DNA of 64,000 bases from the NCBI GenBank assembly GCA_002070095.1, contig MWCR01000008.1, positions 1-64,000 on the forward strand, written 5' to 3'. A program made the position numbers and the translations under genes. Below, in pieces: positions 10,947 to 49,518 of the stretch (position 1 is the stretch's first letter; the number at the start of each line of letters is the position of its first letter). The notes under the pieces are model-generated. The model was not told where the DNA came from. It was given only the letters and a program-made list of their open reading frames with translations, and did no database searches. Source of the DNA: Parcubacteria group bacterium ADurb.Bin192. Its GTDB lineage: Bacteria; Patescibacteriota; Patescibacteriia; 2-12-FULL-60-25.

Positions 10947-11674
10947 TAGACGATGAACCCCGCTTGGCGGAGCACGGGTTGGCAGGAGGCGTGGTACCAG
11001 CCGTCAAAGGGCGTGGTCGGCAGGCGGACGATCAGCGGCTCCAGGCCGTAATCGCGTTTGAGCTCGGTGATGGCGCGTTCCACGATATGGCACTTGAAGG
11101 TGCCGGCCGTTTCGAAGTCTTCGACCATGACAGCGTGAGCCAAGAACAGGGCCAGGAGCGGCTTGTAGTACACTTCGGCCCGCCCGCCCCGGGCATGGAG
11201 CCAGTCCGAGATGTCCAGCAGCGTGTATTGATCCAGGCCGGCGGCCGAGCGCAGCTGCCGGTGGAACTGGGCCAGGGCCACGCCGTGGCGGGTGCTGAGA
11301 CGGTTCAGGGGTTGGCCGTCGTGCCGCTTGGGACTGTCCATGAGACAAAAGCCCGGCCCGGTGTAGCCGCCCTTGCGTCCTTGTCTTTCGGCCACGCGCG
11401 ATTCCACCAGCTGACGTTTCTCGCGGTTGGAAAAACAGAACTTGTCCTGGTTGTAGGTGAACCAGACCGGCGGGAGATCCGCCCGGCGAGACATGTCCAG
11501 GAAGGTCATGTCTTCCATTCTGGCTGACGCTACGTGCCGGGCAATGGTCAGAAAGGGCCGGTCAAAGGGAAAGGGGAAATCGTGCAAAAAGCCGTCCATG
11601 CGCTCCAGTAAGCCCGGTTGGGCGCGTCTTCGCATAATCTCTTGCACGGCCGCCTCCATGCTGTCCGCGTACAT
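10946..11674 (-). CDS. Protein of unknown function (242 aa)
   Basis: Not recognised. The product is soluble, rich in Arg, His, Phe and Asp, with no signal peptide or membrane segment; the mixed helical pattern suggests a globular cytoplasmic protein. The start at 11674 is chosen for the strong ribosome site GAGGAGGA eight bases upstream. An in-frame ATG at 11734 would add 20 residues and runs through the leader terminator. GC content and codon choice (CGC, CTG, GCC) are visibly higher than in the neighbours, suggesting acquisition from another lineage. It is a single-gene unit with its own leader attenuator and terminator. Confidence 0.75.
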   Translation of the reverse strand: MYADSMEAAVQEIMRRRAQPGLLERMDGFLHDFPFPFDRPFLTIARHVASARMEDMTFLDMSRRADLPPVWFTYNQDKFCFSNREKRQLVESRVAERQGRKGGYTGPGFCLMDSPKRHDGQPLNRLSTRHGVALAQFHRQLRSAAGLDQYTLLDISDWLHARGGRAEVYYKPLLALFLAHAVMVEDFETAGTFKCHIVERAITELKRDYGLEPLIVRLPTTPFDGWYHASCQPVLRQAGFIV

Positions 11675-11835
11675 CGGTTGTCCTCCTCGCAGTTGAAAGG
11701 GCGAAAAAAAATGACCTCGCGTTTGCGGGGCCATCCTTAATTTTCCTGTGTATTTTGAAAAACTAAAGACGGCCTCGTTTAATAAAGAGGTTCATTACAA
11801 AAATAATATTGCTTTTCACGAAGATCATACCCGAT
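11675..11835 (-). promoter_or_regulatory. Leader with attenuator upstream of the 242-aa gene
   Basis: Minus-strand leader. A possible promoter is TGTAAA, 17 bases, TATGAT. It is followed by a CCTC/GAGG hairpin and then a strong intrinsic terminator, GGCCCCGC-AAAC-GCGAGGTC plus eight Ts (about 11702-11732). The ribosome site comes 40 bases later. An in-frame ATG (11732-11734) opens at the very start of the terminator stem, so translation of the leader could melt it. Confidence 0.6.

Positions 11836-46622: not shown

Positions 46623-46624
<2 letters not shown>
46597..46624 (+). terminator. Terminator of the zinc-ribbon gene
   Basis: GCGGATCCC/GGGACCGC (one bulge) with TGCAA loop and TTTTTT; convergent with gyrB. 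Confidence 0.8.
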
Positions 46625-48705
<2,081 letters not shown>

Positions 48706-48736
48706 GTAAAAATGTCAACCCGCGGAAGCCCGATTA

Positions 48737-48852
48737 AAATAAAAAGCCCGCTCCGGTGGGGGCGGGGAGCGCGTCGCTGTACTGCTCATTGCGTGAGGAG
48801 GAGGATGCCGCAGTCACGGCGACGCCGGGCGGTCCAGTGCTTGCGACCGTAT
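48737..48852 (-). ncRNA. Candidate small RNA with CCUCCUCCU anti-SD loop
   Basis: About 115 nt on the minus strand between its own promoter and terminator. A 7-bp helix GCGTCGC/GCGACGC (48819-48825 with 48771-48777) encloses CTGC/GCAG (48810-48813 with 48782-48785) and CTCA/TGAG. The loop carries CCTCCTCCTC (48795-48804), complementary to strong Shine-Dalgarno sites. It lacks the signatures of SRP RNA, tmRNA, RNase P or 6S RNA that I can check by eye. A plus-strand small ORF (48805) overlaps but lacks a promoter. Confidence 0.5.
48741..48766 (-). terminator. Terminator of the candidate small RNA
   Basis: CCCGCTCC (48747-48754)/GGGGCGGG (48759-48766), one G-U pair, followed on the minus strand by GCTTTTTATTTT. 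Points toward gyrB. Confidence 0.85.
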
Positions 48853-48857
48853 TTGGC

Positions 48858-48885
48858 AGTATACAGATGGCCGGTAATTAATCAA
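48858..48885 (-). promoter_or_regulatory. Promoter of the candidate small RNA
   Basis: TTGATT (48880-48885), 16-base spacer, TATACT (48858-48863); predicted start near 48851. Confidence 0.6.
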
Positions 48886-48936
48886 GCGGCCGGCATCCGT
48901 TGGACACCCGGTCTTCCGTGCGTCAAAATATTCAAT

Positions 48937-49518
48937 ATGCCGGTTATTTATTTAATGCGACACGGCCGGGTGCATAATCCGGATGAAATCATGTATGGGG
49001 ATTTGCCCGGTTTTCATTTAAGTGAAGAGGGAGTTGTTCAGGCACAAAAAGCCGGAGATGGTTTTGTGCAAGCCGGCATCCGGCTCGGGTTGATTATCAG
49101 TTCTCCTCTGGAGAGAGCGGCCGAAACGGCTCAAGCGGTCGCCTCCGTTACCGGAGCGCCTTTGCGTTTTGATGAACGCTTGACCGAATGGGGCAATGCT
49201 TTGTGGGCGGGTAAAAAGATAAAAGAGTTTGATTTGAAGTCCGGTTATTATGCCGAGCCCATGGTCATGAACGGAATGGAACCGCATGAACGGGCCGCGC
49301 AACGGGTCTTGTCCGTCATACATGAATTAAAATTTTCTTCAGATAACGAGTCTGTTTTGCTGGTGTCGCACCGGGAGGCGCTGGCCAGCGCGATTTTGAG
49401 CATCAATCGACAGCCGTTTGATCGGATTCATGATGTTTGTTTGCCCATGGGCAGTGTCTGGGAAGTTGTTTTGCGGGACGGTTTGCCTTTTGAGGCCAAG
49501 TTTAAATGGGAGTTTTGA
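48937..49518 (+). CDS. Histidine phosphatase (phosphoglycerate-mutase-like)
   Basis: 193 residues of the branch-1 histidine phosphatase superfamily. The catalytic RHG is in YLMRHGRVHNP, the second Arg in SSPLERAAETAQ, a Glu in DERLTEWG and the late His in LLVSHREAL. Could be a phosphoglycerate mutase-type or a general phosphatase (for example of sugar phosphates); no glycolytic mutase is otherwise seen here. ATG 48937 is chosen since RHG normally lies near the N terminus; the in-frame extension upstream crosses the small-RNA region. Confidence 0.85.
   Translation: MPVIYLMRHGRVHNPDEIMYGDLPGFHLSEEGVVQAQKAGDGFVQAGIRLGLIISSPLERAAETAQAVASVTGAPLRFDERLTEWGNALWAGKKIKEFDLKSGYYAEPMVMNGMEPHERAAQRVLSVIHELKFSSDNESVLLVSHREALASAILSINRQPFDRIHDVCLPMGSVWEVVLRDGLPFEAKFKWEF

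Follow-up and report, generated by a model that had tools for sequence, protein, structure and literature searches.

The 274-base intergenic region between gyrB and a divergent histidine phosphatase gene carries, on the minus strand, a promoter-like site followed by a terminator-like hairpin, and these two signals would delimit a short, independent non-coding RNA of about 115 nt. The host is a Candidatus Uhrbacteria genome (1.44 Mb in 69 contigs), with several Ca. Uhrbacteria bins among the closest gyrB relatives in named genomes. Whether such a transcript exists is, to judge by these signals, an even call. An orphan transcript of about 115 nt, acting in trans through a C-rich loop if it has a function, is our best explanation of the region as a whole, held tentatively and at somewhat less than an even chance. 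The features of the region are the following:

46623..48662, minus strand: gyrB, DNA gyrase subunit B, with its ATG at 48662
48677..48718, minus strand: promoter of gyrB itself, TTGACA-7-TTGATG-17-TAATAT, located about 15 nt upstream of the ATG and downstream of the candidate RNA's terminator
48736..48766, minus strand: hairpin resembling a Rho-independent terminator, CCCGCCCCCACCGGAGCGGG (48766-48747), then UUUUUAUUUU, with the U-tract at 48745-48736
48737..48851, minus strand: candidate transcript, about 115 nt long, with its 5′ end predicted at about 48851 and its transcription inferred from sequence and fold
48771..48825, minus strand: hairpin domain with a 7-bp closing helix (GCGUCGC/GCGACGC) and an inner helix around the C-rich loop
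48795..48804, minus strand: C-rich loop CCUCCUCCUC, predicted to be single-stranded
48858..48885, minus strand: sigma-70-like promoter TTGATT-16-TATACT (9/12), with the -35 box at 48885-48880, the -10 box at 48863-48858 and a 16-nt spacer
48937..49518, plus strand: histidine phosphatase (Pfam PF00300, E 1.4e-28), divergent from gyrB, with its ATG at 48937

The anatomy proposed in the initial annotation is largely borne out. The promoter TTGATT-16-TATACT lies at 48885-48858 of the minus strand as described, and the 7-bp helix does enclose the C-rich stretch: its two sides (48825-48819 and 48777-48771) pair with a predicted probability of 0.98-1.0, and CCUCCUCCUC within its loop is predicted to be unpaired with a probability of 0.83-0.98 per base. 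The terminator, which had been called strong, is present as a hairpin with a U-tract but is of moderate strength; its G+C hairpin (48766-48747) reaches -10.9 kcal/mol. Transcription starting near 48851 would end at this hairpin and U-tract (48766-48736), ahead of gyrB's own promoter.

The region is not a gene, its coding potential being lower than in most genuine coding stretches of similar size. The two longest frames that run through it, each of 47 codons and complementary to one another, have codon-statistic z values of 2.2 (plus) and 1.7 (minus), whereas for true coding stretches of equal length the median is 3.7 and the 10th percentile 2.35. Pfam gave no match for either frame, and neither has protein relatives beyond chance in 41 family genomes. 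The absence of a convincing open reading frame, noted earlier for the minus strand, holds on either strand. We also considered whether the phosphatase might extend at its N-terminus through the frame open from 48667, and rejected this (codon z 1.7 for the extension versus 8.5 for the gene). The base composition of the region stands apart, with 59% G+C at 48700-48899 against 23-54%, mostly below 45%, in other intergenic stretches and 47.7% (about 48%) in the host genome.

In order to evaluate these signals against chance, we compared the 274-base intergenic region with 400 dinucleotide shuffles of itself. Single signals appeared in the shuffles at rates of 24.5% for a promoter, 0.75% for a terminator and 0.5% for CCTCCTCC, while a promoter followed 50-220 nt downstream by a terminator on the same strand appeared in none of the 400. 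The promoter alone is therefore at chance level, but promoter and terminator jointly are above it. In the whole 64-kb window (the entire stretch of DNA analysed) this arrangement occurs at three places, the candidate RNA included; the others run from 9764 to 9563, spanning a tRNA-Leu gene (9748-9662), and from 11842 to 11711. The rarity of the joint arrangement supports the part of the earlier "candidate sRNA" proposal that concerns a separate short transcript; the part in which a C-rich loop blocks ribosome sites is weak, as detailed below.

In regards to homologues, BLAST searches of the host's own genome, 57 relatives and phages returned the element itself and chance matches only, and an exact core pattern had no match in viral contigs. 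A covariance model built from the single sequence gave one weak match in the 41 family genomes; it looks like coding sequence, which we take to be a nucleotide-sugar dehydrogenase, and was judged a chance hit. Nor was a homologue detected by nhmmer and covariance scans of the gyrB loci in relatives, and neither these loci nor the 41 family genomes contain a conserved C-rich region or stem. The comparative search for the helix and loop upstream of gyrB, which the initial annotation had proposed as a check, was thus negative by BLAST, nhmmer and covariance model alike. Rfam 15, at curated and permissive thresholds, holds no family for the element (a search up to E 10 gave two non-significant matches only), and covariance models did not place it in RsaE or another Rfam sRNA family. 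Since the genus-level comparison comprises nine genomes, a species-level RNA may exist. A lineage-specific (orphan) element is at most plausible on this evidence.

These results also bear on the main alternative, that there is no functional RNA and that the region is a G+C-rich decayed gene or a rearrangement scar, with a terminator whose sole role would be to stop stray antisense transcription ahead of gyrB. This alternative is a real possibility, only a little less probable than the orphan transcript. It accords with the finding that not even same-genus genomes conserve the element, in a divergent region that changes fast and whose content differs among most relatives examined, with the borderline codon statistics of the two complementary frames, and with a fold at shuffle level: the minus strand folds with -41.6 kcal/mol (z -1.21), a value reached by 24 of 200 shuffles, and is thus no better than chance. 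Against it stand the joint promoter-terminator arrangement, rare by chance, and the failure to find protein relatives of either frame.

The plus strand folds better than the minus (-55.3 kcal/mol, z -2.20; best window z -3.4), and folding therefore leaves the strand of the candidate RNA ambiguous. The region could accordingly belong to the histidine phosphatase mRNA as a structured leader on the plus strand, starting from ATGTCA-17-TAAAAT at 48712-48740, a site that scores as well as the minus-strand promoter; in addition, G-U pairs on the plus strand correspond to A-C mismatches on the minus. We nevertheless consider a phosphatase leader unlikely, because the U-tract has the opposite orientation, the element is not conserved in relatives that keep the phosphatase, and a nearer promoter-like site at 48901-48929 would give a near-leaderless mRNA, as we infer for gyrB.

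In the case of gyrB, a promoter of its own with a very short leader is the most likely arrangement on sequence grounds, given that four genomes of the same genus (L033, L037, L039 and L041) have an identical double -35-like layout with 7-base spacing before gyrB. This genus-conserved TTGACA-7-TTGAT, about 17 nt ahead of TAATAT-like -10 boxes, may represent a tandem -35 element or the site of a regulator. Because the promoter sits between the terminator and the ATG, the terminator is not an attenuator of gyrB and most likely ends whatever transcription arrives from upstream; it follows that the candidate RNA is very unlikely to be a 5′ leader or an attenuator belonging to gyrB, as the shared strand and a terminator 74 nt ahead of the gyrB start codon might suggest. 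The intervening promoter, whose layout recurs in those four relatives, also speaks against the co-transcription expected of a cis-regulatory leader.

The same position in relatives looks like a slot for differing non-coding RNAs across the genus. In two same-genus genomes, G008 (L086:1963-2345) and G007 (L087:2275-2640), an RNA-like element lies between the phosphatase and gyrB on the gyrB strand. The G008 element, of 383 nt, folds with -171.8 kcal/mol (z -6.82), and none of 100 shuffles was as stable. The cores of the two are 74% identical, with seven pairs changed on both sides in a compensatory manner; both have a TTGACA promoter, and that of G008 ends in a terminator. This RNA has no Rfam match, and in a 381-genome sample of the class it was matched in G008 and G007 only. 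In G003 the slot (L168, G003:C5:60600-61200, minus strand) holds a stretch of about 224 nt that folds with z -3.55, led by a promoter (TTGACA-18-TATTAT) and closed by a terminator just before gyrB that overlaps the gyrB promoter. This stretch contains CGCCUCCUCC and ACCUCCUUUCA, which we take to resemble the 3′ tail of 16S rRNA.

The slot RNAs of these three genomes resemble the candidate in position upstream of gyrB, in strand and in having a promoter, and those of G008 and G003 share with it a clear terminator, but they are much longer and far more stable, and show no sequence or covariance similarity to it. The common position therefore supports an RNA-bearing slot and does not show homology. 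Two further observations concern the same neighbourhood. Another stretch of G008 (L086:2535-2800) has a 72%-identical, non-coding-looking counterpart in G004 (L166), about 1300-1500 bases before gyrB; both contain CACACAGCCGGGRCATGTGAGATGGGTC, and the fold is not significant. Upstream of gyrB in two family members (L038 and L085) there are long inverted repeats in which one inner motif recurs, CGAGGAATGT...GAGCGAGTTCCGCAGC. For the candidate itself, a short separate transcript is made plausible by the joint promoter-terminator anatomy, the downstream gyrB promoter and the RNA-like, promoter-led elements in the slot of relatives.

If the candidate RNA is functional, it would most likely act in trans, its CCUCCUCCUC loop pairing with a small number of mRNAs at G-rich stretches that resemble Shine-Dalgarno sequences and hindering their translation. 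As predicted from its sequence, the candidate would share several properties with the C-rich-loop sRNAs of Firmicutes (staphylococcal IsrR; RsaE/RoxS; FsrA), which are likewise short, with hairpins, a C-rich single-stranded loop stretch, a Rho-independent terminator and Shine-Dalgarno complementarity (PMC9410917). However, the stems and C-rich regions of IsrR are conserved across staphylococci while the candidate is not conserved in relatives, and the candidate has no Rfam match. Moreover, the staphylococcal genome, of about 70% AT, has few G-rich stretches other than ribosome sites, which lets C-rich loops find their targets (PMC9410917); in a host of about 48% GC, where such stretches also occur elsewhere, this logic is weak.

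The G-rich sites that had been put forward as targets, before 11674, 3177 and 46008, do exist, and 49 of the 58 called genes have a Shine-Dalgarno match of at most four bases. Target ribosome sites did not stand out among the complements of the loop, most G-rich complements lying inside genes. The window contains 48 complements of at least six bases, ten of which precede a codon that could start a long frame; among those of eight bases, one of five precedes a plausible start codon (at 11688, ahead of the gene that starts at 11674). Among random pieces of 30 bases, about 0.5% match the best candidate target in binding to the loop. Elsewhere in the genome, a perfect 10-base complement (C7, L076) stands directly before the ATG of a 145-codon frame, and genome-wide CCTCCTCCTC has seven matches against eight for a reversed control, i.e. 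a background frequency. Targeting by the loop is thus possible yet not specific by computation. What speaks for ribosome-site blocking is complementarity, set against the background frequency of the motif, the mostly intragenic complements and the lack of conservation, and we regard action of the loop on ribosome sites as unlikely. The fuller proposal, in which the CCUCCUCCUC loop of a Patescibacteria sRNA specific to this lineage would compete with ribosomes for the few strong Shine-Dalgarno sites that an otherwise Shine-Dalgarno-poor genome has, is more doubtful still. As a separate observation, the minus strand at 11842-11674 has a promoter-like site followed by the hairpin TGGCCCCGCAAACGCGAGGTCA and its eight T; a gene whose ribosome site is strong (GCGAGGAGGA) comes directly after, and this stretch could be an attenuator leader or a small RNA.

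A limited literature search turned up no description of a trans-acting sRNA from Patescibacteria. The candidate RNA is presently one candidate among many, a plausible orphan small transcript, and the 383-nt RNA of the two relatives is the stronger lead and merits more attention. A verified sRNA at this locus would, if true, give a first handle on RNA regulation in the reduced, uncultured Patescibacteria.
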